Position numbers and translations under genes: made by a program | NCBI GenBank assembly: GCA_020152595.1 | Contig: JAIGNY010004510.1 | Location: forward strand, 186,001-250,000 | Length of the DNA stretch: 64,000 nucleotides | Source of the DNA: Chiridota heheva | Taxonomy: Eukaryota > Echinodermata > Holothuroidea > Apodida > Chiridotidae | Direction: 5' to 3' | Part shown: positions 11,001-53,600 of the stretch, in pieces | Layout: the number at the start of each line of letters is the position of its first letter | Numbering within the stretch: the stretch's first letter is position 1 | Notes under the pieces: generated by a model | Seen by the model: only the letters and a program-made list of their open reading frames with translations | Database searches by the model: none | Told to the model about the DNA's origin: nothing

Positions 11001-12330
11001 CATTATTCGTTACAAAACTCTAGAACCGTACGGACCCGTTCACTGGTTGTATTGCGGAACTGTAATGTTCAACGCGGAAAATCTTACTGAGGCAGTTCAC
11101 ACAGCCGTGAAACTGCGTAGCTAATGGCTGCAGAGACAAGAAGAAAGTAGCTTTCGTGATGCTATACTTCTCGTGAAGATTGTCACTTATTACCTGACCA
11201 CGTAGGCTTCTTAGCTAGCGGGTCTATTTCCAGGTTCACCGTACGGTGTACGTTATCCCATTACAAAACTCTAAAGCAGTACAGACCCGTTCACCTGAGC
11301 CGTTCACCGGAGCCGTATGGTCTAGAGAGGCGTTTGCATGCTATGCATCGCAGGACATCTTGGGTGCGTAACGCACCGACACTCAGGGACCTGTCCTCTG
11401 TGTCCATGATACTAATGAAAATAATTGCGGAACTGTAATGTTTAACGCAGACAATCTTATTAATGGCATTCACACGGCCGTGAAACTGTGTAGCTAATGG
11501 CTACGGGACCAAGAAGAAAATAGCTCTCTTGGTGCTATACTTCTTGCAAAGATTGTCACCTAACCACGTAGCTTCGTAGCTAGTGGGTGTATTTCCGGGT
11601 TAATCGTACGGTGTACATTATCCCGTTACAATACTATGGAGCCGTACGGATCCGATCACCAGAGCCGTGGGCCACGGAGCCATGTGAAACCAACCAGCCA
11701 TCCAACGGACACATAAACACGGGCCGTGGAGCCATCCAATGGACCTGTAAACACGGGCCGTGGAGCCGTCCAATGGCCTCGTACAGACCCATAAACACGG
11801 GCCATGGAGCCGTATGGAACCGTCCAATGGACCAACGGAACCGTAAACACGGACCGTGGAGCCATGAAATCACTTGTGACTCACGTATAACCTCTTTGGG
11901 TGCCCCGTTTACATCGCCCTACCGGTCCCTATCGTGGCACTGTGGACCACAGCGGTATACAAAGGGTTTACTTCACTAAAAATAAGCACCGCTCGCCAAC
12001 TCAGTATTCTATCGAAAAGGGGGGCGCTTCTTTAAAGTGGTTTAAATTCTAAGTGATGTCTTCTTTAGGACGCCACTTAGTTTATCAATATATAGACTCA
12101 GGTAACTTACGTCTGATAGACCGCACCCGTGGCAATCAATATATAGACTCAGGTAACTTACGTCTGATAGACCGCACCTGTGGCACTACTGACTCAGTAA
12201 TCTATCGAGTCAGAGGCAGGGCGTTAATCAGGAAAAAGTTAACACAGTAAACTACAAACACAGGCCTTCCGAACTCAGTAATCTATCGAGAAGGTGGCCG
12301 TAGCGTAAATAGAAAAACTCAGACTAATTG
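8080..12330. repeat. CpG-rich, complex degenerate repeat block inside element 2
   Basis: Three interleaved families are visible. First, about five degenerate 160 bp units at 8650-9480, centred on TTCACTACGGAGC. Second, about five copies at 9790-11650 of a module running through TGCGTAGCTAATGGCTAC, ATAGCTCTCGTGATGCTATA and ACCACGTAGCTTCGTAGCTA. Third, short units built on GGAGCCGTACGGACCC at 10200-10550 and 11640-11870. A fourth module (CGCATCGCGGGACGTCT) recurs near 9915, 10690 and 11345. Many are imperfect palindromes. CpG density is far above the rest of the window. No sensible protein is encoded. Confidence 0.7.
12050..12310. repeat. 50 bp short tandem repeat at end of the CpG-rich block
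   Basis: ATATATAGACTCAGGTAACT plus TACGTCTGATAGACCGCACC occurs twice in tandem. Partial copies around ACTCAGTAATCTATCGAG follow. Confidence 0.7.
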
Positions 12331-29600: not shown

Positions 29601-32600
29601 GAGATTCAAATGTGGAAGTCTAGTAATATGATCAACTTTATTGGTTTGGAAAATTCGGATGAGAAAAGGTGATTAAGTGTTCAAGGAAAATAAAAATAAA
29701 TACAAATAAAGTCATTAAGATTCAAACCTGTATGAGGCCTTCTTCTAGGGGTGATTGGTGATCCACAGGGAGGTGTTGGACAAGGGGAAATGTGATTTCC
29801 GTTGGAAATAACAGTTATACAAACACCTAAACACAGGAACATTGGGAGAACACAAGCCATACAGAGTGTGGTTAGCATAAAACACAGCAATCAAAAGTTA
29901 TCAGTCAATCCCCAAACTCCAGTTAATGAGGCATTTGCATCATTCCCTTCGAGACAAGCCCCGCCCACCCGATCATTTTTTATGAGTTGTAATTTCATTT
30001 TGGAATAGGTGCCTCAACTTCAGCAGGGCCGTATGATGAAATCAGTTCCAAGCAGGTTTTTTTTTTCAAGTAGCCCGGGATTGTTATTGTGTTAATCTTG
30101 GAAAAATAACAACTTAAGATATATTTGTTCTCTGTTTATTAGGTAATTTTGCCCATAAAGAGAGTAAATTGATTTTAAGGAATGTAAAAAATAGGTTAAA
30201 ACTTGCCGTGCTCCTGACTGCTTTGGCTGGTGTTGAAATTTAAGTGAGGTTTATTCGGAAAGATTATAAGATGCCACACATTTTGATATCAATAACAGTT
30301 TGTTGCGAAAACGTTCAGGTGGTTTAAAAGCAGATCCAAAGGTGTCCATTTCTCATTTGTCAGGTGATATGTATACACCAATAGCAGTAGTGCATTTGCT
30401 GTAATTACACTGGCCTAGGAACAGGTCTGTATTTGCCATGCTCCTGACTGGTTTGGCAGGTTTTATGATTAAGTATTATGCATAAAATGTGTAAAAGGAA
30501 ATTCTACATCACATAATCAAAAATCACTCTGTTGCGAGAATGATTACCCACATGGCATGGGAGAAATTCATAGTGTAAATGTTTCAGTTTTGTAACGTTC
30601 CTTTTGTCTGTAACTTTCATCCTTTTTTCCAATCAATGATAAGTCTAAAACATCAATGAACATTAATGTTCAACCTTTAACTAAAGGTTTTGCAAAAAAT
30701 TAACATCATTTATACATTCCTTAGCCATGAAATTATCGTCAGCAAATGGCACATTTAAACTCATTATATATTCATAAATCCAAGTGGGCGTGAATACATG
30801 CAGAAGAAAAGGAACGACTTTACAGAGTTTGGGGATCGACTGTTATCAAACATGTCAATTAAAAGCAAAAACAACTTATTTCATTTAAAATCTTTCGTAA
30901 ATAAAAAAAGTATTAAAGCTACATCAGATAAGCATTGGGGAAATGTTAACAGAATCCAAATAAGTAACTGAAGCTAGTTTTAGCTTATACTATATTCAGG
31001 AATAACTAACTGAAGCTAGTTTTAGCTTATACAATATTCAGGAATAACTACCTGAAGCTAGTTTTAGCTTATACTATATTCAGGAATAACTAACTGAAGC
31101 TAGTTTTAGCTTTATACTATCTTCGGGAATAACTAACTGAAGCTAGTTTTAGCTTATACTATATTCAGAAAAAACTAACTGAAGCTAGTTTTAGCTTTAT
31201 ACTATCTTCAGAATAACTAACTGAAGCTAGTTTTAGCTTATCATATATTCAGGAATAACTAATTAAAGCTAGTTTGAGCTTAAACTATATTAAGGAATAA
31301 GTAACTAAAGCTAGTTTTAGTTGATACTATATTCAGGAATAACTAAATGAAGCTAGTTTTAGCTTATACTAGATTAATAAATAACTAACTGAAGCTAGTT
31401 TTAGCTTATACTATATTCAGGAATATCTAACTGAAGCTAGTTAGGAATATCTAACTGAAGCTAGTTTTAGCTAATACCATATTCAGGAATAACTAAGTGA
31501 AGCTAGTTTTAGCCTATACTATATTCAGGAATAACTAAGTGAAGCTAGTTTTAGCTTATACTATATTCAGGATATTTTAGTTGGCTGCTTAGTTTTGATT
31601 GACAAAACGTTGAGTCATTAGTGCCGGAGGGTTAGCAAGAAAAAGTTATGGTTGTTACGTTGTGTTGTCATCTATCACTTCAGCACCAAAGTAATCTTAC
31701 TAAGACACAGCACACTGTAAAGCATTAATTGCAAATTTCACTGGAAATACATCATCTGGGGGAAAGGATTACAACTGAGTTTCATTTATAGACACTAATA
31801 ACTCATACAAAAGAGAGCAACAGATTCTGCATGAGCACCCAAACTCTAGCTCCACCCCCAAAAAACAACCACTATTCAAATAAAGAACTTACCCATGGAT
31901 ACGCTGCTAGTACTACTCTCAAGACTATCAATGTCAAATAACTTACCCATGGATACAGTGCTAGTACTACTCTCAAGACCATCAATGTCAAATAACTTAC
32001 CAATGGATACAGTGCTAGTACTACTCTCAAGACTATCAATGTCAAATAACTTACCCATGGATACAGTGCTAGTACTACTCTCAAGACTATCAATGTCAAA
32101 TAACTTACCCATGGATACAGTGCTAGTACTACTCTCAAGACCATCAATGTCAAATAACTTACCAATGGATACAGTGCTAGTACTACTCTCAAGACCATCA
32201 ATGTCAAATAACTTACCAATGGATACAGTGCTAGTACTACTCTCAAGACTATCAATGTCAAATAATTAACTTACCCATTGATACACTGCTAGTAGTAAGC
32301 TCAAGACTATCAATGTCAATTAAATAACTTACCCATGGATACGCTGCTAGTACTACTCTGAAGTCTATTAATGTCAATTGAATAACTTACCCATGGATAT
32401 GCTGCTAGTACTACACTCAAGATTATCAATGTCAAATAACTTACCCATGGATACGCTGCTAATACTACTCTGAAGTCTATCAATGTCAATTGAATAACTT
32501 ACCCATGGATACGCTGCTAGTACTACTCTGAAGTCTATCAATGTCAATTGAATAACTTACCCATGGATACGCTGCTAGTACTACTCTGAAGTCTATCAAT

Positions 32601-35600
32601 GTCAATTAAATAACTTACCCATGGATACGCTGCTAGTACTACACTCAAGACTATCAATGTCAATTGAATAACTTACCCATGGATACGCTGCTAGTACTAC
32701 ACTCAAGATTATCAATGTCAATTGAATAACTTACCCATGGATACGCTGCTAGTACTACACTCAAGACTATCAATGTCAATTGAATAACTTACCCATGGAT
32801 ACGCTGCTAGTACTACTCTGAAGTCTATCAATGTCAATTAAATAACTTACCCATGGATACGCTATAGTACTACACTCAAGACTATCAATGTCAATTGAAT
32901 AACTTACCCATGGATACGCTGCTAATACTACTCTGAAGTCTATCAATGTCAATTAAATAACTTACCCATGGATACGCTGCTAGTACTACACTCAAGATTA
33001 TCAATGTCAATTGAATAACTTACCCATGGATACGCTGCTAGTACTACTCTGAAGTCTATCAATGTCAATTGAATAACTTACCCATGGATACGCTGCTAGT
33101 ACTACACTCAAGATTATCAATGTCAATTGAATAACTTACCAATGGATACGCTGCTAGTACTACACTCAAGACTATTAATGTCAATTGAATAACTTACCCA
33201 TGGATACGCTGCTAATACTACTCTGAAGTCTATCAATGTCAATTGAATAACTTACCCATGGATACGCTGCTAGTACTACACTCAAGACTATTAATGTCAA
33301 TTGAATAACTTACCCATGGATACGCTGCTAATACTACTCTGAAGTCTATCAATGTCAATTGAATAACTTACCCATGGATACGCTGCTAGTACTACTCTGA
33401 AGTCTATCAATGTCAATTGAATAACTTACCCATGGATACGCTGCTAGTACTACTCTCAAGACTATCAATGTCAATTAAATAACTTACCCATGGATACGCT
33501 GCTAGTACTACTCTGAAGTCTATCAATGTCAATTGAATAACTTACCCATGGATACAGTGCTAGTACTACTCTGAAGTCTATCAATGTCAATTGAATAACT
33601 TACCCATGGAAACGCTGCTAGTACTACTCTCAAGACTATCAATGTCAATTAAATAACTTACCCATGGATACGCTGCTAGTACTACTCTGAAGTCTATCAA
33701 TGTCAATTGAATAACTTACCCATGGATACGCTGCTAGTACTACACTCGAGACTATCAATGTCAATTGAATAACTTACCTATGGAAACGCTGCTATAGTAC
33801 TACTCTGAAGTCTATTAATGTCAATTGAATAACTTACCCATGGATACGCTGCTAGTACTACACTCAAGTCTATCAATGTCAATTAAATAACTTACCCATG
33901 GATACAGTGCTAGTACTACTCTGAAGTCTATCAATGTCAATTGAATAACTTACCCATGGATACGCTGCTAGTACTACACTCAAGTCTATCAATGTCAATT
34001 AAATAACTTACCCATGGATACGCTGCTAATACTACTCTGAAGTCTATCAATGTCAATTAAATAACTTACCCATGGAAACGCTGCTAGTACTACTCTCAAG
34101 ACTATCACACGTGCTAGGATCATCCTCCTCAATCCCACTAGAGTCTGAAACAAAATCATGTCAAACATTTTTAAACCTCAATCTTGGACAAAACTGTCTT
34201 GGAACAGTCACACATGCTGCTACATTATATTTCCCAAAGCATACGTAAAAATGAATTATTTCAAGTGTGTCATGCGTCAAATGTACGATAAAGCGTTCAC
34301 CTATCTGGTTGTAACTAGATTCAGGTTCTAAATCTTATGCTATTGCCTCCTCATCCTTTCAGATAAGCACGAAGGGAAGATTTATGACAAAAAAATGTGC
34401 AAACTTACCTGTGCTCTTCTCAATGTCCCTGCTGACCAAAGGATGGCTGTGATCACTGCTAGTCCCTTTGGTTGATCTGGAGGAGGATGACAGCTCATCA
34501 GCAGAGTCAAAAACATCCCTGGTACAAAAGAATTAAAACCATTATTACTGCGCATGATACACCTACTTGAGGAGCAGCGGAAGAGTTATCAGTCCACCAT
34601 ACCCTTGGTGCATCCAGATTGTTGCTAAGCAAGTCATCAAGCTCACATAGTCATCAAGCTGACTGGGTCATAAAGCTGGCAGAGTCATAAAGCTGACCAA
34701 GTCATCAAGCTGACCGAGTCATCAAGCTGACCGAGTCATCACGCTGACCAAGTCATTATGCTGACCGAGTCATCACACTGACCGAGTCATCACATTCACT
34801 GAGTCATCACGCTGACCGAGTCATCAAGCTGACCGAGTCATCAAGCTGACCGAGTCATCAAGCTGACCAAGTCATCAAGCTGACCGAGTCATCACTCTGA
34901 CCGAGTAATCATGCTGACCGAGTAATCAAGCTGACAGAGTCATTAAGCTGACTGAGTCATCAAGCTGACCGAGTCATTAAGCTGACCAAGTCATCAAGCT
35001 GGGTTTTACATAACCATGTAGATCAATCCAAACAATCAATCCAAGATTTCCTTCACATCAATGATTGAATAATCCACGCTGTTACTTGACCAAATGTAAG
35101 AGGTAATGTAAGACCCAAAAGTAAGAGGTAATGTTAGACTCAAATGCAAGAGGCAATGTAAGAAAAAAGTGCAAGAGGTAATGTAAGACACAAATATAAG
35201 AGGTAATGTAAGACTCAAATGCAAGAGGCAATGTAAGAAAAAAGTGCAAGAGGTAATGTAAGACACAAATATAAGAGGTAATGTAAGACCCAAATGTAAG
35301 AGGTAATGTAAGACCCAAATGCAAGAGGTAATGTAAGACTCAAATGCAAGAGGTAATATAAGACTCAAATACAAGAGGTAATGCAAGACCCAAATGTAAG
35401 AGGTATTGTAAGACTCAAATGCAAGAGGTAATGTAAGACTCAAATGTAAGAGGTAAAGTAAGACTCAAATGCAAGAGGCAATGTAAGACTCAAATGTAAG
35501 AGGTAATGTAAGACTCAAGTGTAAGAGGTAATGTAAGACCCAAATGCAAGAGGTAATGTAAGACTCAAATGTAAGACTTACATGCAAGAGGTAATGTAAG

Positions 35601-38600
35601 ACTCAAATGTAAGATGTAATGTAAGACTCAAATGCAAGAGGTAATGTAAGACTCAAATACAAGAGGTAATGTAAGACTCAAATGCAAGAGGTAATGTAAG
35701 ACTCACATGTAAGAGGTAATGTATGACTCAAATGTAAGAGGTAATGTAAGACCCAAATGCAAGAGGTAATGTAAGACTCAAATGTAAGAGGTAATGTAAG
35801 ACTTACATGCAAGAGGTAATGTAAGACTCAAATGTAAGATGTAATGTAAGACTCAACTGCAAGAGGTAATGTAAGACTCAAATACAAGAGGTAATGTAAG
35901 ACTCAAATGCAAGAGGTAATGTAAGACTCACATGTAAGAGGTAATGTATGACTCAAATGTAAGAGGTAATGTACGACTCAAATGCAAGAGGTAATGTAAG
36001 ACTCAAATGCAAGAGGTAATGTAAGACTCAAATACAAGAGGTAATGTAAGATAAAAGTGCAAGAGGTAATGTAAGACTTAAATGCAAGAGGTAATGTAAG
36101 ACTCAAATACAAGAGGTAATGTAAGACTCAAATGCAAGAGGTAATGTAAGACTCAAATACAAGAGGTAGTGTAAGACTCAAATGTAAGAGGTAATGTAAG
36201 ATAAAAGTGCAAGAGGTAATGTAAGACTCAAGTGTAAGAGGTAATGTAAGACAAAAGTGCAAGAGATAATGTAAGACTCTCAAATGTAAGAGGCAATGTA
36301 AGATACAAATATAAGAGGTAATGTACGACCCAAATGTAAGAGGTAATGTAAGACACAAATGTAAGAGGTAATGTAAGTAAGACTCAAATGCAAGAGGCAA
36401 TGTAAGATTTTCATGGATAACTGTAAAATCCTGAACTTACATCATATCCGAATCACTTTTGATACTTGAAGCGCCCGCACTTCCAGACAAGTTGGCAAGA
36501 CGATCGTACCTTTCTTGTGAAGCTAGAAACAGCCTGTGATAGTTCTGCATATTCCTAGTAGCCTCGTGGTAATGTCTTCAAAAGGAAGAAAGACGTTTAG
36601 AATATAAGTTCATTTGTAAAACGTTAAAACAATATCACTTCCACCATGGCAACTGACCATCCTCCTGATGGCAACTGACCCCCCTCCTGATGGCAACTGA
36701 CCACCCTCCTGATGGCGACTAACCACCCTCCTGATGGAAACTGACCACCCTCCCGATGGCGACTAACCACCATCCTGATGGCAACTGACCACCCTCCCGA
36801 TGGCGACTAACCACCCTCCTGATAGAAACTGACCACCCACCCGATGGCGACTAACCACCATCCTGATGGCAACTGACCACCCACCCGATGGCGACTAACC
36901 ACTACCCTGATGGCAACTGACCACCATCCTATCCTGATGGCAACTGAAGACCATCCAGATGGCAACTGACCACCATTCTGATGGCAAGTGACTACCATTC
37001 TGATGGCAAGTGACCACCCTCCTGATGTCAACTGACCACCCTCCTAACGGCAACTGTCCACCCTCCTGACGGCAACTAACCACCCTCCTGATGGCAACTG
37101 ACCACCATCCTATCCTGATGGCAACTGACCACCATCCTATCCTGATGGCAACTGAAGACCATCCAGATGGCAACTGACCACCATTCTGATGGCAACTGAC
37201 CACCCTTCTGATGGCAAATGACCACCCTCCTGATGGCAAGTGACCATTCTGATAGGAAGGGTCACCGTCCTGATGGCAAGTGACCACCATTCTGATGGCA
37301 AGTGACCACCCTCCTGATGGCAAGTGACCACCCTCCTGATGGCAAGTGACCACCTTCCTGATGGCAAGTGACCACCACTCTGATGGCAACTGACCACCCT
37401 CCTGATGGCAACTGACCATTCTGATAGGAAGGGACCACCGTCCTGATGGCAAGTGACCAACATTCTGATGGCAAGTGACCACCCTCCTGATGGCAACTGA
37501 CCACCGTCCTGATGGCAACTGACCACCATCCTGATGTCAAGTGACCACCCTCCTGATGGCAACTGGTATATGGAAATGTCCTCTTCACTTGAAGTAAATA
37601 CTCTAAACAAAATAAGTTATCAGACTTCAATAATAGGTTTGTTGATGAACAGAAAAAAACAAATATTGTCATATCTAAGGGGTATGAAAGCATCAATTTG
37701 AACATTAATGCACATTGCTCAATATCAAGATACTACCATGCACTTTGAGACATTTTGAATGTATGTTTACTAGTGATTGGATAACTATCTGTGTAAATTA
37801 CATTGGTCCAGCACATGTTCTTACTTCACATGTGTGTAAATTACATTAATTTAGCATATGTTCTGACTTACTTTCCCTGTGTGTAAATTACATTGGTCCA
37901 GCACATGTTCTGACTTACTTCCCTGTGTGTAAATTACATTGGTTCAGCACAAGTTCTGACTTACTTCACTGTGTGTAAAATAAGGTTGGTCCAGCAGATG
38001 TTCTGAATTACTTTCCATGTGTGTAAATTACATTGGTTCAGCACATGTTCTGACTTACTTCGCATGTGTGTAAATTACATTGATCCAACACATGTTCTGA
38101 CTTATTTCCCATGTGTGTAAATTACATAGGTCCAGCACATGTTCCGACTTACTTCCCATGTGTGTAACTTACGTTGGTTTAGCACATGTTTTGACTTATT
38201 TCCCATGTGTGTAAATTACATTGATCCAGCACATGTTCTGACTTACTTCTGCGTTCTCTTCCTTTCTCGTTCCAGTTTCTTCTCAAGACTGATCTGGTTA
38301 CTTCTCAAGATGTCCACATGTCGCATCATCACGTCTGAGATAAGCGCTGCCACCTCAATAATATCTGGCCTATCCTCAGCCTTGGCCGTTAAACATCTAA
38401 AAACAAAGCAGTTACACATTGTCTAATTAACAAATAATAAAGGTTTTAATAAAGGTTTTGAAGGTATACTTTCATCTATCACAAATAATGATTTGCAGAT
38501 GAACTACTACATACGTCTTTCAAAAGGATTAGTGCGCTACAAGAATTTGATTCCATGTGGACACGTCGAGGTAACAATAACTCAAGGGCTTTTATTGCGT

Positions 38601-41600
38601 ATGGGCACGTCGAGGTAACAATAACTCAAGGGCTTTTTTTGCATATGGACACGTAGAGGTGACAATAATTCAAGGGCTTTTATTGCATATGAACACGTAG
38701 AGGTAACAATAATTCAAGGGCTTTTATTGCATATGGACATGTAGAGGTGACAATAATTCAAGGGCTTTGATTGCGTATGGACACGTAGAGGTAATAATAA
38801 CTCAAGGGCTTTTATTGCATATGGACACGTAGAGGTAACAATAACTCAAGGGCTTTTATTGCGTATGCACACGTCGACGTGACAATAACTCAAGGACTTT
38901 TATTGCGTATGGACACGTAGAGGTGACAATAACTCAAGGGCTTTTACTGCATATGGACACGTCGAGGTGTCAATAACTCAAGGGCTTTTATTGCATATGG
39001 ACATGTAGAGGTGACAATAACTCATGGGCTTTTATTGCGTATGGCCACGTCGAGGTGACAATAACTTAAGGGCTTTGATTGCGTATGGACACGTAGAGGT
39101 AACAATAACTCAAGGGCTTTAATTGCATATGGGCACGTCGAGGTAACAATAACTCAAGAGCTTTTATTGCATATGGGCACGTCGAGGTAACAGTAACTTA
39201 AGGGCTTTTATTGCGTATGGCCACGTCGAGGTGACAATAAGGGCTTTTATTGCGTATGCACACGTCGAGGTGTCAATAACTTAAGGGCTTTTATTGCACA
39301 TGGACACGTCGAGGTGTCAATAACTTAAGGGCTTTTATTGCGTATGCACACGTCGAGGTGACAATAACTCAAGGGCTTTTACTGCATATGGACACGTCGA
39401 GGTGTCAATAACTTAAGGGCTTTTATTGCGTATGGACACTTAAAGGTAACAATAATTCAAAGGCTTTTATTGCATATGGACACGTAGAGGTAACAATAAC
39501 TCAAGGATTTGTATTGCGTATGGACATGTCGAGGTGACAATAATTCAAGGGCTTTTATTGCGTATGCACACGTCGAGGTGACAATAACTCAAGGGCTTTT
39601 ATTGCGTATGCACATGTAGAGGTAACAATAACTGAAGGGCTTTTATTGATACGGACATGTAATTTGTTTTTTTGTTTGATGAGGTCTGAACTGCACCACG
39701 ACAACTAGGGTCAAATTGTGCCTGAGAGGTCAAATCACTTTAGAGGTAGGAAGGAAAGAAAACAGGGGGAGAATGAGAGAAATTCCAGAACAAAAGGTCA
39801 GAAAGCTGTGTTCGAGAGAAGAGGTGCATGGGTGAAACAAAAACAAAGTAGAGAGGGGGGTGGAAGAGGAGAATTAAATATGGTTGTAGAGGGAAGCATG
39901 ATGAAGGAAGGAGATAATTTTATCCGGCGGATTTCTGGAAGAACTCAGCAATTAAGTTGTGGGGAGCGAGGGAAGCTCTGAGAAGGTTGTGCAGGGGGCA
40001 AGCAAGGAGAACGTGATTGATAGTGAGGGTGCAGTAGCAATTGTTACAGAGGGGTTGGGGGGAACCAATAAGGAGGTGGGAGTGAGTGAGGTGGGTGTGA
40101 CCAATTCTAAGACGGGTAATATGAACGTTGTCAATATGAAAGAGGTTGTTGATGGTGGACTATTTGATCAGGATTGTGGGCTGGATGACATGGAGTTTGT
40201 TATCAATTTGGGAGTTTCATGAGGTTTGCCAGAGGTCACGAACAAGGGAAGCGATAAGCGGTTTGATGTCAGAGAGTTTTGTGAAAAGGGGTAGGGAGGA
40301 GGTTGAGGGCAAGCTTAGCGGCTGCATTAGCCCTGTCATTACCAGGGATGCCAACATGGCTGGGTATCCAGAAGAAAAGAACACCTTTTCCTGCAGAGGG
40401 TGGGAGAAAGGAGTTTCCGGAGGAGGAGGTGGCATGTGAGGTTATCCCATTTAAGATTAAGTAATGAAGTAAGAACAGCCTTTGAGTCGGAGAAAATGGC
40501 AAAGTGGCTGAGAGGAGAGTACTCAATAAAGTTGAGGGCGAGGAGAATGGCCTTAGCCTCCGCTGAAAAGATGGATGAATAGTCAGGAAGTCTGCTACTG
40601 AGGGTGATGTCTTGGATGATGGCAGCAGCAGCTGTCTTGTTGCCTTCCTTGGAGCCATCAGTATAGATGGAGGTGTAATTTGGAAGTTGGTCTTTAATTT
40701 GCTTGTGGAGATTGATGAAGAGGTTAGGATGGGTTTGAGTTTTATAATAAGTGGAGAGGTCTAGGTGGACAGAAGGGAGGGGGTGGCCCAAGGAGGAAAA
40801 GTGGGCCAGGAGTAGGTGCCAAGAGTGGCGGGGTTGATGCCGAGATGAAAGAGGACTGATTTAATGCGTAAGCTGAAGGGAGGGGATAAGGTTTTAGTCC
40901 TATCGAAGAGGGAGGAGAAATTGGGGTACCTAATGAGGTTGTAAACAGGGTTCTGGGTGTTGGTGAGGACTCTAAAAGCATAGAAGAGGCTAAGCTTTCT
41001 ACATCTTAGTAGAAAGGGGGGTTCGTTGGCTTCAACATGAAGGCTGGTGATTGGGGAGGTCCTGTAGGCTTCTAGACAAAGCCCGAGGGCTTCATTTTGG
41101 ATGGTATTGATGTGCTTGAGGTATGAGTTGTGAGCGACACAGTAGACAATATTGCCATAGTCAAGCTTGGCACGAATGGTGAGCCTAAAAATTTTGAGGA
41201 GAGCAAAGCGGTTCGCACCCCAAGTGGTGTTGGAGAGGAGTCTGAGGAGGTTGAGGGAGCACTTGCATTTCAGTTTCAGGTTGGTGATGTGTTGCTTGTA
41301 GGTAAGCTTAGGGTCTAGAGTTAGACCCAGAAACTTTGTGTGTTCAACTTTTGGGATGCGATTCCCATTGAGCACAAAGTTTGGGTTGGGGTGGAGGTTG
41401 TTGAAATGACAAAAGTGCATGCAGACTGTCTTGTCTTTGGAAAATTGAAAACCGTTATTTGTGCTCCAGACTTGCAGCTGGTTGAGGCTGATTTTCAACA
41501 ATAGGAAAGCTAAAGGAGGAGTAGAAGATGGTGACGTCATCAACGTAGAGGGTACGTTTGATGCTGCGGCCAAGGTTATTTACGATGTCATTAATGCTCA

Positions 41601-44600
41601 GGTTGAAGAGAGTGGGAAAGAGGATGCTGCCTTGGGGGACGCCCTCTTCTTGGAGGTACGGCTTGGAGAGGGTGTGGCTAATACGAACTTGGAACTGCCT
41701 GGGTGAGAGGAAGTTTTGAATACAAATTGGGAGGTGGCCTCCGAGGCCGATGGTGTGAAGCTTGCGGGTAATGCCTTATTTCCAAGTAGTGTCGAAAGCT
41801 TTCTTGAGGTCAAAAAAATGGCAATGAGGTGTTTCTTTTTTGCAAAGGATTCCCGGATAGCGGTGTTGAGCGTAATTAACTGGTCTGGGGTATTGCAACG
41901 TTTTTGGAAGCCGCTTTGGTGAGGGGAGAGGATTATGTTGGTCTCGAGGAACCAGTTTAGTCTCTGATTAATGATCCTTTCCACAATTTTACAGAGACAG
42001 CAAGTGAAGGCGATGGGTCGGTAGCTGGATGGGTTGGTACCGTCCTTCCCCGGTTTAAGGACGGCGATGACAATAGCTGTCCTCTAAATTAGGGGAAAGG
42101 AGTGTGAGGACCAAATGTGGTTGAAGATGGTGAGTAGAGGTGACAATAATCCAAGGGCTTTTATTGCGTATGCACACGTCGAGGTGACAATAACTCAAGG
42201 GCTTTTATTGCGTATGGACACGTAAAGGTAACAATAACTCAAGGGCTTCTATTGCGTATGGACACGTCGAGGTAACAATAACTCAAGGGCTTTGATTGCG
42301 TATGCACACGTCGAGGTGACAATAACTCAAGGGCTTTTATTGCGTATGGACATGTAGAGGTAACAACAACTCAAGGGCTTTTATTGCCTATGGACGCGCC
42401 GAGGTAACAATAACTCAAGGGCTTTTATTGCGTATGGACACTTAAAGGTAACAATAATTCAAAGGCTTTTATCGCGTATGCACACGTCGAGGTGTCAATA
42501 ACTCAAGGGCTTTTATTGCGTATGGACACGTCGAGGTGACAATAACTCAAGGGCTTTTATTGCGTATGGACACGTCGAGGTGACAATAACTCAAGGGCTT
42601 TTATTGCGTATGCACACGTCGAGGTGACAATAATTCAAGGGCTTTTATTGCGTATGGACACGTCGAGGTGTACATAACTCAAGGGCTTTTATTGCACATG
42701 GACACATAGAGGTAGCCATAACTCAAGGGCTTTTATTGCATATAGACACGTAGAGGTTACCATAACTTAAGGGCTTTTATTGCGTATGGGCAGGTAGAGG
42801 TGACAATAACTCAAGGGCTTTTAAAACCCTTGACTTGGAAACTAAGTATGCTACTTTCATAACTTAGCTATAACTCAGAAACTAAGTATGCTACTATCAT
42901 AACTTAGCAATAACTCAGAAACTAAGTATGCTACTAACATAACTTAGCTATAACTCAGAAACTTAGTATGCTACTTACATAACTTAGCTATAACTCAGAA
43001 ACTACGTATCCTACTTTCATAACTTAGCAATAACTCAGAAACTTAGTATGCTACTTACATAACTTAGCTATAACTCAGAAACTACGTATCCTACTTTCAT
43101 AACTTAGCAATAACTCAGAAACTAAGTATGCTACTTTCATAACTTAGCTATACCTCAGAAACTATGTATCCTACTATCATAACTCAGCTAAAACTAAGTA
43201 TGCTACTTGTACACGTACGGTATATGCCCATGTTCATATACCATACACTTTACACACACACTTACATGTTGTATTGTACACGTATGGTATGATACGTCTC
43301 ATCATATACCATACACTTCACACACACACACTTACATGTTGTATTGTACACATATGGTATGATACGCCTCATCACATACCATACACTTCACACACACACA
43401 CTTACATGTTGTATTGTACACATATGGTATGATACGTCTCATCATATAGCATACACTTCACACACACACTTACATGTTGTATTGTACACGTATGGTATGA
43501 TACGTCTCATCATATACCATACACTTCACACACACACACACTTACATGTTGTATTGTACACATATGGTATGATACGCCTCATCATATACCATACACTTCA
43601 CACACACACACTTACATGTTGTATTGTACACATATGGTATGATACGCCTCATCGCATACCATACACTTCACACACACACACTTACATGTTGTATTGTACA
43701 TGTATGGTATGATACGTCTCATCATATACCATATACACTTCACACACACACATTTACATGTTGTATTGTACACATATGGTATGATACGCCTCATCACATA
43801 CCATACACTTCACACACACACACTTACATGTTGTATTGTATACGTATGGTATGATACGCCTCATCATATACCATACACTTCACACACACACACACTTACT
43901 TGTTGTATTGTACACGTATGGTATGATACATCTCATCATATACCATACACTTAACACACACACACACTTACATGTTGTATTGTACACATATGGTATAATA
44001 CGCCTCATCATATACCATACACTTCACACACACACACTTACATGTTTGTGTGTACACGTATGGTATAATACGTCTCATCATATACCATACACTTCACACA
44101 CACACACTTACATAATGTATCGTACACATATGGTATGATACGCCTCATCATATACCATACACTTCACACACACACACTTACATGTTGCATTGTACACGTA
44201 TGGTATGATACGCCTCATCACATACCATACACTTCACACACACACTTACATGTTGTATTGTACGCATATGGTATGATACACCTCATCATATACCATACAC
44301 TTCACACACACACTTACATGTTGTATTGTACGCATATGGTATGATACACCTCATCATATACCATACACTTCACACACACACCCACTTACATGTTGTATTG
44401 TACACATATGGTATGATACGCCTCATCACATACCATACACTTCACACACACACACTTACATGTTGTATTGTACACGTATGGTATGATTCGTCTCATCATA
44501 TACCATACACTTCACACACACACACACTTACATGTTGTATTGTACATGTATGGTATGATACGCCTCATCATATACCAAACACTTCACACACACACACTTA

Positions 44601-47600
44601 CATGTTGAATTGTACACAAATGGTATGAAACGCCTCATCATATACCATACACTTCACACACACACACTTACTTGTTGTATTGTACACGTATGGTATGATA
44701 CACCTCATCATATACCATACACTTTACACACACACTTACTTGTTGTATTGTACACGTATGGTTAGATGTGTTAGCTTTTCATCGTGACAAAGACTTTATT
44801 GGAGGAATTGATTAATTTTTGTTTTCAAAAGTGCAAATACATTCAATGTTTTCCTTTTTACCAATGGCCAGCATGGCCGTTGGATTCATGTGTAAGTCTC
44901 TGCCAACAATGAGTCTTGTACTATAACTGTAGCTATAGTGTGCATGGTATCTTTAAATCGATGTACAGTGTGATGTATGATAAGTCTGTTTATCGCAGGA
45001 GAAATAAAAGATTCGCAAAATATATCGTATCTTTGAAAGAAAAAAACATGCATTTGAAGTTCAAAAGTGTAGTTTGGAACACAAATGAAAACTTTGTGTT
45101 GTATTTTACCTCCAATATCCTTTATTTGCGTTCTGTATAATCACTCATTACTTCATCCCATATTGACGAGAAACAGATGTAGTGTTTACTTCCATTTAGT
45201 TTGCATCAACCTGGTTTCAATATGTCTTTTACATAAAATTATATCTTTTACTTAAAATCAAATGTACAGTATACCCAAGCCCTCGATATTTTGTTCGTAT
45301 ATTCTGAGTTAATTGAACTGAACAGAAGCTGGAATCTATTCTTGGAAATACATGTTCCTTTCAAACCCATGGTTCTACCGGTAGCACTGAAAACATTTAC
45401 TCCCAGGGTTCCATATCGTAGTGTGATCTTTTGCATTAAAGCAATGTATTGCTTAAGAAGGGCTTGATAAAAAAATGTTTGTTCTTCTGTCAGTCTCATA
45501 TGTCAATGCTACCTACATTTCATTATTTAAAACATCTCAGTTTTAATTGTTTCAAAATAATTCGGGAGGAATTGCAATTGCTAGACCTATATGGTCATCA
45601 CTTTACCAAGGGTGGTGCTATGAGAGAGGGGGCATTCCCCCAACGAGATCGCATTGCCTGCCCACGCGATTGCATTGCCTTCCCCCTCCCAATTGCCTGC
45701 CACAAAATTGTGTAAAGTTACATATTTTGTCCGATATATAGGCTTCCCCCACCAATGAGACCAAATTGCCACTCTCTTGCCCCAAAATTGTGTAAAGTTA
45801 CATATTTTGTCCGATATATAGGCTTCCCCCACCAATGAGACCAAATTGCCACTCTCTTGCCCCTATGCCCAAATTCCTAGCACCACCACTGCACTTTACC
45901 CATCGAAAGTGTGTGCATGCATGTGTGTGTGTGGAGGAAGGGGGAGGGTGGGGTGTTATAAACATCGCATATCGCATGAAGATACAAAACATAAACCACA
46001 ATACAAAAAATGTAAATATGGAGAAAATAAGTTAGAAACATTTCCCCTTTCCATCCAAACTGTGTCTATGCAGCTCATGCGGATTTACTAAAAATATTGT
46101 TTTTGTAGTATCAGTATGAATCGGGAGACGGGCTTGCATTTTACTCCATGAGTGGGTGGAACCTCCACCCCCATCCTCATTTAAAAACTCATTCATATTG
46201 CAAGTAAATAAGTTGCAGATATTGTGAGAGAGAGAAATGCAACTTGAGGCTCCAAAGTTTTGTAAGATGTAGAAGTGATTATTTTGTGCTTGGGTTTGGC
46301 CATATAAATACTTCTTTGGGTTGTAAGACACCTCTCACAAGAAAAAACTAAATTAGAAAAACAATGAATACGAAATTACCCCGGAAATTACCTTTCAAAT
46401 TATAGCATTTATCAGTCTTTATAAAACATTTTCTTTACGCAAAATGTGCTCTTCACTCTTTCCAATGATATGCATCAATAATGATAAATCAGTATTTACA
46501 ATGATTATGCCTTTTTATTCTTTTTACATATACTTCTTTAACAGGATGAAAGTAGATCAGTTTTTTTTTAACTTGCCGATTCCCGATAAATAATTACATG
46601 TTTCAAATGCAAAGAAAGTTTTCTGGTGTAGACCGTGTCATAAATCAGACATGTGCGATGGACCCTGATTTTTTAGACTAGTCAATTGAAGGAGCGGGTG
46701 TACACAACATGAACAAATTGTACTTCACAAGGAAAAGAATATCCAAAAGAAAAATGTTAATGACAGGGGATCGTAGATGTCAGTTTCGGGGAGGGAATTT
46801 CCCTCAATAAAGTTATGGAATGTAGATGAGATTATACCAGAATGTAATATGAAGAGGAATAGGGGATATAGGAAGGAAGACAGAGAGGGGGGGGGGAAGG
46901 GGTGATGTAACTCCCCTTTTTTTCATATGTTTATTTTTAAATAAGTTTTTGTATCTTATTGTATTTCATGGTTTTGCCCCCCGGTTTCAGTAAGCAAATT
47001 TAATTTGATGAATTTGCTACCACATTGTTTATTTGTATACAGCCTTCTTATACCTTGTCCACAACCCTTGCAGAAACGGCGCCAGGATTTTAATGCTAGG
47101 GGAAAAAAGAGGGGTAGCTTTGTCTCATGTGCAAATACATCAGAAACAATTTGTAAATTTACATCATTTTCGGGGGAGTGGGAGGGAAAGTCGATTTCGT
47201 TAACTGATTGGTGCTTTTGTGCCGCCACTGGGAGGGTCACCCTTTCCCGAAGATATCTTGGACATAGGCCTAGGCCTACAGGAGAAAAGAAAGATAACAT
47301 GAGATCATTTTTCTTGAATTATTCCTGGAGCAATATGAATAATCCAAAAATGCCCCCTCCCGCTGCTCTGGGTCAGTATATGCTGGTTTAAGAAATCTAA
47401 TATAAGCCTGGGCTATGGTAATGACATTTTTATGGTGAAAACGGGAGCTTCATTTCGCCACTCCTTGGGAAGTTTAATTAGGCCCTATAAGGCCTATGAT
47501 ATAAACTAGTAACAAACGTTTTTATTTTTCAGGGTTTGATAAATTCACAATTCAATATTTGTTTTTTGGTTCACCTAAAATGGGCCTAAACTTTGTGGAA

Positions 47601-50600
47601 AGATAAGACAAAACACAATCTAGGGCCTAATTTATTTTTCCAATTATCTTTGGTATGAAAACACAACAAATGCTTTTGAAAATGTATAACCTGCTCTGTG
47701 AAAAAGGAATACCCTATTTAGATATATTAACAATTAAGGTGGTGATTTACCTGTTGAAAAAAAGGAAAGAAGAAGAGTGAAGTATGTTTATTTTTGATGC
47801 AATTCATGATTTGATGCAAGGCCTGCTGTACACTGTGTTAAGAGAACCATCATATTGAACTTGTAACATAATATAGCCTATACTATATGTGCCACCTTTC
47901 ACTTCAGGAAGTCAAATTCAAACAAAACCAATAATTTTACCAACAAAACCCAGGGGCAAACAGAAGAGATTTATCTTTGGTTGAACTTTTGCTGAGTTAA
48001 CCCCATTCATAGGAGATAAACACAGAAACCTCACACACATTGTACAGTGCATTCAGTGTATGCAAATAGTGAACGCGTGAACGCGTGGACGCTCTTGTCT
48101 TGTGTTGACATTGATTCAATAGGCAACTCTGTGCTATTTTTGGGTCGGGCTCCGTCCGCCCACTGGTCACCTGTCGGTCGGGTGATGGTCGCATAAAGCC
48201 TGTATGACGCAGACTTAAACTGTCCATAAGAGATATTCGAAACTTACTTTCTGATTGTGTTGGAGACTTGTGAGGAATACTTTCCATCAGGAACAGGAGG
48301 ATACTCAGCAGCGACAATCTATAAAAGATAACAATACACAAGAATAAAAATGAACATTAAAGATAACAATACACAAGGCTAACAATGAAGATCAAAGATT
48401 AAAATACACAAGGATAACAAAGAACATTAAAGATAACAATACACAAGGATAACAATGAACATTAAAGATAACAATACACAAGGCTAACAATGAAGATCAA
48501 AGATTAAAATACACAAGGATAACAAAGAACATTAAAGATAACAATACACAAGGATAACAATGAACATCAAAGATAACAATACACAAGGATAACAATGAAC
48601 ATCAAAGATAACAATACACGAAGATAACAATGAACATTAAAGATAACAATACACAAGGATAACAATGAACATTAAAGATAACAATACACAAGGCTAACAA
48701 TGAACATCAAAGATAACAATACACAAGGATAACAATGAACATTAAAGATAACAATACACAAGGCTAACAATGAAGATCAAAGATAACAATACACAAGGAT
48801 AAAAATGAACATTAAAGATAACAATACACGAAGATAACAATGCACATTAAAGATAACAATACACAAGGATAACAATGAACATTAAAGATAACAATACACA
48901 AGGATAACAATGCACATTAAAGATAACAATACACAAGGATAACAATGAACATTAAAGATAACAATACACAAGGCTAACAATGAACATCAAAGATAAAAAT
49001 ACACAAGAATAACAATGAGCATTAAAGATAACAATACACAAAAATAACAATGAACATTAAAGATAACAATACACAATGATAACAATGCACAATAAAGATA
49101 ACAATACACAAGGATAACAATGAACATTAAAGATAACAATACACAAGGCTAACAATGAACATCAAAGATAAAAATACACAAGGATAACAATGCACATTAA
49201 AGATAACAATACACAAGGATAACAATGAACATTAAAGATAACAATACACAAGGCTAACAATGAACATCAAAGATAAAAATACACAAGGATAACAATGAAC
49301 ATTAAAGATAACAATACACAAGGATAACAATGAACATTAAAGATAACAATACACAAGGATAACAATGTACATTAAATATAACAATACACAAAAATAAAAA
49401 TGAACATTAAAGATAACAATATATACGGCTAACAATGAACATCAAAGATAAAAATACACAAGAATAACAATGAGCATTAAAGATAACAATACACAAGGAT
49501 AACAATGAACATCAAAGATAACAATACACAAGGATAACAATGAACATCAAAGATAACAATACACGAAGATAACAATGAACATTAAAGATAACAATACACA
49601 AGGATAACAATGAACATTAAAGATAACAATACACAAGGCTAACAATGAACATCAAAGATAACAATACACAAGGATAACAATGAACATTAAAGATAACAAT
49701 ACACAAGGCTAACAATGAAGATCAAAGATAACAATACACAAGGATAAAAATGAACATTAAAGATAACAATACACGAAGATAACAATGCACATTAAAGATA
49801 ACAATACACAAGGATAACAATGAACATTAAAGATAACAATACACAAGGATAACAATGCACATTAAAGATAACAATACACAAGGATAACAATGAACATTAA
49901 AGATAACAATACACAAGGCTAACAATGAACATCAAAGATAAAAATACACAAGAATAACAATGAGCATTAAAGATAACAATACACAAAAATAACAATGAAC
50001 ATTAAAGATAACAATACACAATGATAACAATGCACAATAAAGATAACAATACACAAGGATAACAATGAACATTAAAGATAACAATACACGAGGCTAACAA
50101 TGAAGATCAAAGATAACAATACACAAGGATAAAAATGAACATTAAAGATAACAATACACGAAGATAACAATGCACATTAAAGATAACAATACACAAGGAT
50201 AACAATGAACATTAAAGATAACAATACACAAGGATAACAATGCACATTAAAGATAACAATACACAAGGATAACAATGAACATTAAAGATAACAATACACA
50301 AGGCTAACAATGAACATCAAAGATAAAAATACACAAGAATAACAATGAGCATTAAAGATAACAATACACAAAAATAACAATGAACATTAAAGATAACAAT
50401 ACACAATGATAACAATGCACAATAAAGATAACAATACACAAGGATAACAATGAACATTAAAGATAACAATACACAAGGCTAACAATGAACATCAAAGATA
50501 AAAATACACAAGGATAACAATGCACATTAAAGATAACAATACACAAGGATAACAATGAACATTAAAGATAACAATACACAAGGCTAACAATGAACATCAA

Positions 50601-53600
50601 AGATAAAAATACACAAGGATAACAATGAACATTAAAGATAACAATACACAAGGATAACAATGAACATTAAAGATAACAATACACAAGGATAACAATGTAC
50701 ATTAAATATAACAATACACAAAAATAAAAATGAACATTAAAGATAACAATATATACAGCTAACAATGAACATCAAAGATAAAAATACACAAGAATAACAA
50801 TGAGCATTAAAGATAACAATACACAAGGATAACAATGAACATTAAAAATAACAATACACAAAGATAACAATGAACATTAAGGATACCAATACATAATGAT
50901 AACAATGAACTTTAAATATAACAATACACAATGATAACAATGAAAATTAAATATAACAATACACAAAAATAACAATGAACATTAAAGATAACAATACCCA
51001 AGGATAACAATGAACATTAAAGATAACAATACACAAGGATAAAAATGAACATTAAAAATAACAATACACAATGATAACAATGAACATTAAATATAACAAT
51101 ACACAATGATAACAATGCACAATAAAGATAACAATACACAAGGATAAAAATGAACATTAAAGATAACAATACACAGTGATAACAATAAACATTAAATATA
51201 ACAATACACAAGGATAACAATGAACAATAAAGATAACAATACACAAGGATAACAATGAACATTAAAAATAACAATACACAAGGATAACAATGAACATTAA
51301 GGATACCAATACACAAGGATAACAATGAATATTTTGATTCCTGATCAATTGATTTATTGATCAAATCATTATCATTTTAAAGTTCATTTTCACTCATTAA
51401 TATAATCCTAAAGATAGAATTAAGAATGTAGCAAAAATTGGGTGCCACAATCTAGGGGAAACAAAAATGCTTAAGGACAACAATGACACACATTGATTCC
51501 TGATCCATTCTTCATAAAGCATACTTCAATCCAGCCAACACATCACATATCATGAAAGGTGACTTACCTTGGTGGCAAGGCTGAGCATGTTTGAGCTATA
51601 AAATGGTGGATTCAGGGTACACATCTGATACAGGATGCATCCTATGGCCCACACATCAGCTTTATCAGAGTAAGGCAAATTTTGAATTATTTCAGGACTG
51701 GAAGAGAGAAAGATAATGATTTGAATTTGATTCACAGATATGGCTTTAAAAAAATATTATGCACAAGCATGGATGGAGTGAATAAATGTGAAAAGTAAAC
51801 ATTTGCTTCAAATATCCAGAAACATTACCCTATCAAAACTACTCCATACATCAGTGTACAATGCTACCCAATTAAACCTATTCCATACATCAATGTACAA
51901 TGCTACCCAATCAAACCTATTCCATACATCAATGTACAATGCTACCCAATCAAACCTATTCCATACATCAATGTACAATGGTTCCCAATCAAACCTATTC
52001 CATACATCAATGTACAATGCTACTCAATTAAACCTATTCCATACATCAATGTACAATGATACCCAATCAAACCTATTCCATACATCAATGTACAATGCTA
52101 CTCAATTAAACCTATTCCATACATCAATGTACAATGCTACCCAATCAAACCTATTCCATACATCAATGTACAATGCTACCCAATTAAACCTATTCCATAC
52201 ATCAATGTACAATGCTACCCAATCAAACCTATTCCATACATCAATGTACAATACTACCCAATCAAACCTATTCCATACATCAATGTACAATGCTACCCAA
52301 TTAAACCTATTCCATACATCAATGTACAATGCTACCCAATTAAACCTATTCCATACATCAATGTACAATGCTACCCAATCGAACCTATTCCATACATCAA
52401 TGTACAATGCTACCCAATCAAACCTATTCCATACATCAATGTACAATGCTACCCAATTAAACCTATTCCATACATCAATGTACAATGCTACCCAATTAAA
52501 CCTATTCCATACATCAATGTACAATGCTACCCAATCAAACCTATTCCATACATCAATGTACAATGCTACCCAATTAAACCTATTCCATACATCAATGTAC
52601 AATGCTACCCAATCAAACCTATTCCATACATCAATGTACAATGCTACCCAATCAAACCTATTCCATACATCAATGTACAATGCTACCCGATCGAACCTAT
52701 TCCATACATCAATGTACAATGCTACCCAATCAAACCTATTCCATATATCAATGTGCAAATGCTACCCAATCAAACCTATTCCATACATCAATGAGCAATG
52801 CTAAGAAACTTCTGTTAATCTCCTGGACTAAAATTTAAGAAAAACTCCAATAAACTATCTGCCATTCATAACACATTACTTATCTTATCAGAAAGTTCTT
52901 TAACATTGAAAAGCCACAACTAAAAAACTGTATATGCTATATTTTTAGATGTATACCTTTCACATATGTTACCAATTGCATAATATGGATCTCTCTTTAA
53001 AGTTCCCTTTAAAGTATGTATATAAATGATTACCAATTGTATAATACAGTCCCCTTTAAAGTATATAAATAAATGATTACCAATTGTACAATATAGTTTC
53101 CTTTAAAGTATGTAAATAAATGATTATCCATTGTACAATATAGTTCCTTTAAAGTATGTAAATAAATGATTACCAATTGTATAAAATAGTTCCCTTTAAA
53201 GTATGTAAATAAATAATTACCAATTGTATAATATAGTTCCCTTTAAAGTATAAAGTATGTAAATAAATGATTACCAATTGTATAATATAGTTCCGCTTTA
53301 AAGTGGGTAAATACATGATTACCAATTGTATATGGTTCCTTTAATGTAAATAAATGATTACCAATTGTATAATATACTTCCACTTTAAAGTATGTAAATA
53401 AATAATTATCAATTGTATGACATAGTTCTCCTTTAACATGTAAATGGTTACCAATTCTATAATATAGTTCCCTTTAAACATGTAAATAAATAGTTACCAA
53501 CTGTAATGGTTACCAATTGAATGACATAGTTCCCCTTTAACATGTAAATAAATGGTTACCAATTGTATAATATGGTTCCAACCACTGAAGTCATCTTGCT

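Follow-up and report, generated by a model that had tools for sequence, protein, structure and literature searches.

The locus raises two questions: how the end of a short predicted exon, together with its 5' splice site, came to be repeated as a long intronic minisatellite, and which of the resulting donors would be used. The window was the whole 64,000-nt stretch of the Chiridota heheva assembly analysed here. The exon and its downstream partner were placed as follows.

34070–34144, minus strand: predicted exon 9, source of the exon part of the repeat; 75 nt, phase 1 on both sides, acceptor TTTCAG, donor ATGG/GTAAGT
29728–29826, minus strand: predicted exon 10, partner of exon 9; phase 1, set by splice signals and phase, with no tblastn match

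The predicted NEK10-like gene is an 11-exon open frame that accommodates exon 9, which joins exons 8 and 10 in frame. Exons 8–10 were positioned from splice signals and phase alone and were unmatched in a tblastn search with the human protein. The same probe matched exon 3, a conserved kinase exon, at 76% identity. On the basis of that human sequence NEK10 is the likely host gene, in agreement with the earlier note. Exon 9 being symmetric, a direct junction of exons 8 and 10 is in frame too, and skipping exon 9 would therefore preserve the frame as well.

The repeat that begins at the end of exon 9 was divided into the following parts.

31886–34107, minus strand: whole donor minisatellite (TRF, donor list and alignment); 39 donors, made up of exon 9's own and 38 intronic copies
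34064–34069, minus strand: first donor, GTAAGT, predicted to splice exon 9; of the 39, only this one lets the open frame continue into exons 10 and 11
32216–34069, minus strand: proximal section, mostly 58-bp units with single 57-, 60- and 54-bp units; two-unit alternation (spacing, lag-2 similarity)
31892–32215, minus strand: distal section, built of 54-bp units without stops in the reading frame of the copied exon segment

TRF run on the window reported 31886–34107 with a period of 58, 38.8 copies and a score of 3481. In the donor list, 39 GTAAGT sites run from 34069 (exon 9's own) down to 31892, and the 38 intervals between them are 58 bp (29 intervals), 54 bp (7), 57 bp (1) and 60 bp (1). 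GTAAGTT is intact in 39/39 donors, GTAAGTTATT in 37/39, and GG precedes GT in 34/39, the remaining five having AG or TG. The earlier note had placed the array correctly, on what is the minus strand, and had rightly described a consensus 5' splice site in every copy; its figure of about 39 copies downstream of the exon holds for the donors in all, whereas the downstream copies number 38. Each unit carries the last 38 nt of the exon at 34144–34070 plus the donor, in register, and the 38-nt match stops abruptly. Over these 38 nt the mismatches to the exon end were zero for copy 8, one for copy 38 and four for copy 1. A 38-nt match with a sharp end means that the likeness to the exon is not confined to a few bases, the doubt raised with the original proposal. 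The exon-plus-donor origin of the units was thus supported, as was the picture of a single good acceptor ahead of many near-identical donors. The last copy, 1/38 nt off the exon, adjoins unique intron, as it should if the seeding duplication had its far edge there. When the 1.1-Gb assembly was searched at the DNA level (one first-look candidate), the array sequence turned up at this locus only, as expected for a locally made repeat; very common words were skipped, and the result does not prove rarity.

Alignment of the 38 copies yielded 24 distinct sequences, with identical copies occurring at a distance. Comparison of the units, suggested earlier for dating the copies, gave no simple gradient; an age gradient outward from the exon was rejected. 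The most exon-like copy is number 8, copies 8, 11 and 23 come closest to the consensus, and the 54-bp units of the distal block group separately, with weak support.

In the coding frame a TGA lies 14 nt beyond the first donor and upstream of all the later ones, so that 38/38 later donors introduce a premature stop. This counts against the array as a route for exon growth, as had been proposed. U1 complementarity reaches 7/11 matches in 38/39 donors; the later donors equal the first in strength, and the motif alone therefore does not favour the first. Pseudo-exons inside the array were rejected, no convincing acceptor being found among its 238 AGs (best pyrimidine share 0.59 over 17 nt). An acceptor-like site lies just beyond the array at 31756, with a pyrimidine share of 0.76, better than that of exon 10. 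Predicted RNA structure of the exon and four copies was no more stable than that of shuffled sequences (z 0.19).

Minisatellites of the exon–intron boundary, called mirages, have been described in amphioxus Adh3, the globins BflGb6 and BflGb9, PGBD5 and TnC. In the text available for these reports, mirages can involve the 5' or the 3' boundary, are homogenised within the cluster except at its edges, are reported to leave regular splicing undisturbed and have cephalochordate hosts in all the cases given there (PMC3087553, PMC3902484). Judged by its sequence, the NEK10-like array is a mirage. It is a tandem repeat across a boundary whose first copy is predicted exon 9's own, its copies retain splice signals (GTAAGTT in every donor), and its single assembly location and distant identical copies point to local origin and internal turnover. 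It differs in size: the same sources give 6 and 3 units for the BflGb6 haplotypes and one duplicate for BflGb9, against 39 donors here (PMC3087553, PMC3902484). The assembly, at 1.1 Gb, is about twice as large as the amphioxus genome; searches for COX1 and for the GFP family, the latter run with no positive control, gave no match.

Very probably, then, the array is a mirage-type minisatellite seeded by duplication of the boundary. A short tandem duplication would have captured exon 9's terminal 38 nt, the 5' splice site and ~16–20 nt of intron. Slippage or unequal exchange would then have expanded the duplicate within the intron, while internal turnover maintained the likeness of the units. 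Exon 9's own donor would be the productive site and the other 38 cryptic or low-use, their transcripts being cleared by nonsense-mediated decay. The downstream copies would be free to multiply because they are intronic and any use of them yields an early stop.

Two further arrays of the gene begin at predicted donors.

53001–53567, minus strand: second such array, comprising the final ~20 nt of exon 3 (53638–53560) and its donor GTAACC, with 12 further listed donor positions, six of them GTAATC
37790–38248, minus strand: third array, beginning at the donor of exon 6 (exon at 38396–38247); unit of the donor and only ~3 nt of exon (TRF)

The exon 3 array is divided by TRF into 53001–53505 and 53443–53567, and GT is retained at 11/13 of its listed donor positions. 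In-register copies of the exon 6 array keep GT in 8/10 and GTAAGT in 6/10. A further array lies 34 nt beyond exon 7. With that array included, three donor-adjacent arrays were observed in the gene against 0.95 expected by random placement (P 0.058 at the widest margin, 0.10–0.18 at narrower ones); non-random positioning of arrays at donors in this array-dense gene is only suggestive.

Constancy of the donors could also reflect regulated donor choice, the array tuning productive against decayed NEK10 transcripts or serving as a bank of U1 sites that blocks early polyadenylation in a long intron. None of the seven donor columns is variable, compared with 23/51 elsewhere (Fisher P 0.035). GTAAGT occurs 79 times on the sense strand of the gene span (39, 21 and 7 in the three arrays, 12 elsewhere) versus 7 on the antisense strand, and intron 5 contains 38 sense AATAAA sites. 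However, a second block of eight columns, TTGACATT, is equally invariant, so that homogenisation can account for donor conservation; conservation as proof of selection was rejected on this ground. Donors have, moreover, drifted in the exon 3 and exon 6 arrays. Nor are donor arrays over-represented genome-wide: array matches numbered 4,199 for GGTAAGT versus 19,497 for the reversed pattern, 6,223 versus 8,770 for GGTGAGT and 7,504 versus 12,732 for the decoy GGTCAGT. Genome-wide enrichment was rejected, as the reversed control was higher for 3/3 motifs and the decoy outnumbered GGTAAGT. We regard regulated donor choice as improbable.

Arrays sampled elsewhere in the genome bear on whether exon 9 exists. 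Exons were called in the flanks by eye and not blind, using whole flanks for L025–L034 and the last 420 nt for L035–L062. An array started at the donor of a predicted exon in 3/10 GTAAGT arrays, 1/20 GTGAGT arrays and 0/8 decoys; pooled, this is a small contrast of 4/30 with 0/8. One more decoy array, the ninth (contig C23), was excluded as its upstream end fell outside the listed stretch, and L032, merely plausible and with first donor GTTAGT, was kept out of the count. The four called exons and L032 were searched against Pfam, and the four also against PDB. One called exon matched Zwilch at E 0.006, short of the curated cut-off; at E <= 0.001 the assembly contains a single Zwilch match, which covers the following part of the profile and lies 1,371 nt downstream of the first donor in the same orientation. 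One matched uDENN (E 4.6e-6, above cut-off). Homology of these two array-seeding exons to Zwilch and uDENN is weak to fair. The exons at L031 and L058 had no match in Pfam or PDB, and that at L030 matched only designed proteins in PDB (best E 0.014).

Because an exon is missing from the start of 6 or 7 of the 10 GTAAGT arrays sampled, and donor words are common in this minisatellite-rich genome, exon 9 might be spurious and the array an ordinary intronic minisatellite with a chance donor-like word. Its symmetry, which makes it dispensable to the frame, and the lack of a match to the human protein would agree. Exon 9 nevertheless has a good acceptor, phases that fit on both sides and an open frame, and like anatomy is found at conserved exon 3 and at the Zwilch- and uDENN-matching exons, which makes this reading unlikely.

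Less likely still is a former coding repeat, in which the exon once extended into 54-bp units as an 18-residue repeat until a 4-nt insertion gave 58-bp units and closed the frame: the distal 54-bp units are indeed open in the copied exon frame and read GKLFDIDSLESSTSTVSM with small changes, but only ~16 nt of each unit are newly brought into that frame, so that an open unit would be likely by chance, the frame is already closed in the first proximal unit and the array is without a convincing acceptor.

By analogy, a functional precedent for a multi-donor minisatellite is human IFI6 (6-16, G1P3), in which the unit is 12 bp. The source, as far as its available text goes, describes two downstream units acting as donors, with three mRNA species possible (PMC4526556). 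The variants there are described as coding for distinct isoforms, whereas every later donor of the NEK10-like array, 38/38, lies past the TGA. Minisatellites at exon–intron boundaries are also represented by internal tandem repeats in human segmental duplications, which, in the part of that report available, reach boundaries and change exon or intron structure; unlike the present array they average 30-bp units repeated four times and were detected by paralogue comparison (PMC2812944).

The array is thus best read as a mirage-type repeat, already known from lancelets, with similar ones in a few genes elsewhere in the C. heheva genome. Like anatomy at exon 3 and at the Zwilch- and uDENN-like exons suggests a repeatable mutational route, which makes comparisons between alleles and species possible. 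With 39 near-identical donors after one acceptor, nature provides here a clean test of spliceosomal choice between equivalent 5' splice sites, and of the way in which an intron can become longer at its start. More tentatively, and with the balance somewhat against it, this genome may have an ongoing process by which long minisatellites arise from exon 3' ends and the adjoining donors, affecting something like a hundred genes in a non-lancelet animal. If so, boundary minisatellites would be more widespread among animal genomes, and splice-site choice could be measured on many naturally occurring arrays of near-identical donors.

The donor array, on the minus strand, was continuous with exon 9 of the predicted kinase gene (34144-34070) and ended at 31886. 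It contained 39 GTAAGT donors, the first (exon 9's own) at 34069 and the last at 31892, separated by 38 intervals of 58 bp (29 times), 54 bp (seven), 57 bp (one) and 60 bp (one). The exon 9 end was common to the copies over 38 nt and was followed by immediate divergence, as aligned for copies 8 and 38 (copies numbered outwards from exon 9). Over these 38 nt, mismatches to exon 9 numbered zero in copy 8, one in copies 11 and 38, two in copies 23 and 25, six in copy 31 and three to five in the remainder, with copies 5 and 21 set aside because small indels shift their register (counts of 16 and 24). GTAAGTT was present in 39/39 donors, and 24 of the 38 units were distinct. The repeat of exon end and donor described in the earlier note is real, and its similarity to exon 9 extends well beyond a few bases.

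Amphioxus exon-intron boundary minisatellites have been named mirages and are said to have been first described by Canestro in 2002. Such repeats span boundaries in Adh3, globin, PGBD5 and TnC genes, are reportedly without effect on regular splicing and have been proposed to give rise to new introns (PMC3087553, PMC3902484). The donor array is of the same kind, a repeat across an exon-intron boundary. In human IFI6, a minisatellite reportedly provides several used donors (PMC4526556). A search of open-licence literature brought up no further report recognised as describing a donor array with so many copies, or one in this gene. The donor array is a genuine and rather fine case of a kind already known.

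The host gene was examined by tblastn at permissive settings, with human NEK10 as query. Of the 11 modelled exons, eight (exons 1-7 and 11) had collinear minus-strand matches, as did an extra stretch at 14495-14412, with identities of 54-76% (37% in exon 7); those to exons 5 (E = 0.012) and 7 (E = 0.002) were weak, and two rows extended past their exons. Exons 8, 9 and 10 gave no tblastn match to the human protein and were placed from splice signals and phase. The 11 exons, from 63490 to 16051, joined into a single open frame, whose product contained a Pfam protein kinase domain (5.1e-42) and had NEK1 and NEK7 as its best solved relatives. Collinear matches, domain and relatives together make NEK10 the likely identity, as judged against the human sequence. 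Exon 9 is in phase between exons 8 and 10, but it is symmetric, and its omission would leave the frame intact.

Reading the exon 9 frame into the intron, a TGA was met 14 nt beyond the first donor, and all 38 later donors would therefore give the same premature end. The route for exon growth proposed in the earlier note is blocked at this codon. At exons 3 and 6 a stop begins 1 nt past the donor. Matches to the U1 consensus were near-equal across the array, at 7/11 in 38 donors and 8/11 in one. Reading frame and exon length suggest that the first donor is preferred. No convincing acceptor was found among the 238 AGs of the array, the best having a pyrimidine share of 0.59 over 17 nt, compared with 0.65 for exon 9 and 0.71 for exon 10. 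Equal or better acceptor-like sites were present between the array and exon 10 (top two 0.76).

One of these top two sites, TCCTTTCCCCCAG at 31756 on the minus strand, lies just past the array and resembles a strong acceptor (pyrimidine share 0.76). Spliced to the first donor, it would leave 18 codons open before a stop, and it may mark an alternative last exon.

Copies 8, 11 and 23 lay closest to the consensus, with 0-1 differences, against 2 for the exon copy and 6-8, missing bases included, for the distal 54-bp copies. The distal copies clustered in the unit tree with weak support. A two-unit alternation was seen in the array, where units differed on average by 3.57 at lag 2 and by 4.90 at lag 1, compared with 4.18 over all pairs of copies 1-30. 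The last copy (38) adjoins unique intron and, with its single difference from exon 9, is consistent with a seeding duplication bounded by exon 9 on one side and by this copy on the other, with turnover of the copies between them. Variable columns were 0/7 in the donor versus 23/51 elsewhere (Fisher P = 0.035); selection on the donors is not demonstrated by this, since a second stretch of 8 columns is equally invariant.

Tandem arrays (period at least 10, at least 2 copies) occupied 49% of the window versus a median of about 3.5% (range 0-45%) in 16 stretches of the same assembly, a rough sample, since these were picked by contig number, several contigs were short and two held 7,500 and 2,500 N. 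GTAAGT occurred in the consensus of 4/47 window arrays, all four on the sense strand of the gene, versus 0/57 in the comparison stretches. The exon 3 array had the same anatomy as the donor array: its repeat took in the donor and roughly the last 20 nt of the exon, and GT was kept at 11/13 listed positions, including the first. The exon 6 donor was the start of a third array (GT in 8/10; exon part about 3 nt). On random placement of 28 arrays with a 40-nt margin, 3 donor-anchored arrays were seen versus 0.95 expected (P = 0.058), a count that includes an array 34 nt past exon 7 and misses the exon 3 array because TRF split it. With donors and acceptors, 5 were seen (P = 0.030); narrower margins gave P of 0.10-0.18 for donors and 0.07-0.29 for both. 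Further repeats of the window were as follows.

38558-39648 and 42137-42823, minus strand: a single 44-bp array of intron 5, in two stretches that flank an element matching reverse transcriptase (41598-42083, E = 7.7e-9); units carry sense AATAAA (intron 5 total, 38 sense versus 5 antisense)
43207-44762, minus strand: 70/142-bp array with 21 intronic sense GTAAGT words, far from any exon found
48324-51333, minus strand: 35-bp array of 86 copies, ending 6 nt before the exon 5 acceptor, whose pyrimidine-rich stretch it appears to supply
53661-54232 and 57091-58009: a single 37-bp array, in two stretches that flank a segment matching Exo_endo_phos (55633-56205, E = 3.6e-6) and a 163-bp near-perfect duplication (54334-54659)
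12084-12185, minus strand: two near-identical 51-bp copies with GACGTAAGTT, located downstream of the final exon match; they may represent a small boundary duplication or have arisen by chance

The assembly holding the window (1.1 Gb, about double the amphioxus genome; 3,744 contigs) was searched for three GGTAAGT spaced 31-61 bp apart, with the reversed pattern and a decoy, GGTCAGT, as controls. GGTAAGT gave 4,199 matches, its reversed control 19,497 and the decoy 7,504. Genome-wide enrichment of donor arrays was therefore rejected, and the genome is simply minisatellite-rich. Upstream flanks were read for 10 GTAAGT arrays among the matches listed (contigs C1 to C52), and 3/10 began at a predicted exon's own donor and carried copies of the exon end.

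Sampled arrays anchored on predicted exon donors
L028: exon part of about 7-16 nt copied
L030: at least 28 nt of exon copied
L031: 38 nt of exon copied, with 1 mismatch

The L030 exon matched uDENN (Pfam, 4.6e-6, above the curated cut-off). That of L028 matched Zwilch below the cut-off (Pfam, 0.006, profile 318-356), with zwilch as best solved match (E = 0.077). When the assembly was searched for Zwilch, a single match reached E <= 0.001. It continues the profile (362-415) and lies 1,371 nt beyond the donor of L028, with the same contig and strand. The L031 exon was open across 46 residues, with no homology match in Pfam or solved structures. One of 20 GGTGAGT arrays among the matches listed, L058, had boundary anatomy; its exon had no homology match. 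None of 8 decoy arrays read had an exon at its start. Stops were found at +15 (L028 and L030), +8 (L058) and +57 (L031) past the donor; the second L031 donor lies at +56, so that splicing from it would cause a frameshift without passing a stop first.

L032 (G000:C49:29300-30000, minus strand) is only plausible as a boundary array. Its units are about 55 bp, the first copy follows an open stretch but has GTTAGT as its donor, and an acceptor-like TTGCAG is also present in some units.

Were the listed matches representative, the genome would hold roughly 400 GTAAGT arrays and, by rough extrapolation from the 3/10, boundary arrays on the order of a hundred. The main addition made here is that further exons in this genome show the same boundary anatomy.
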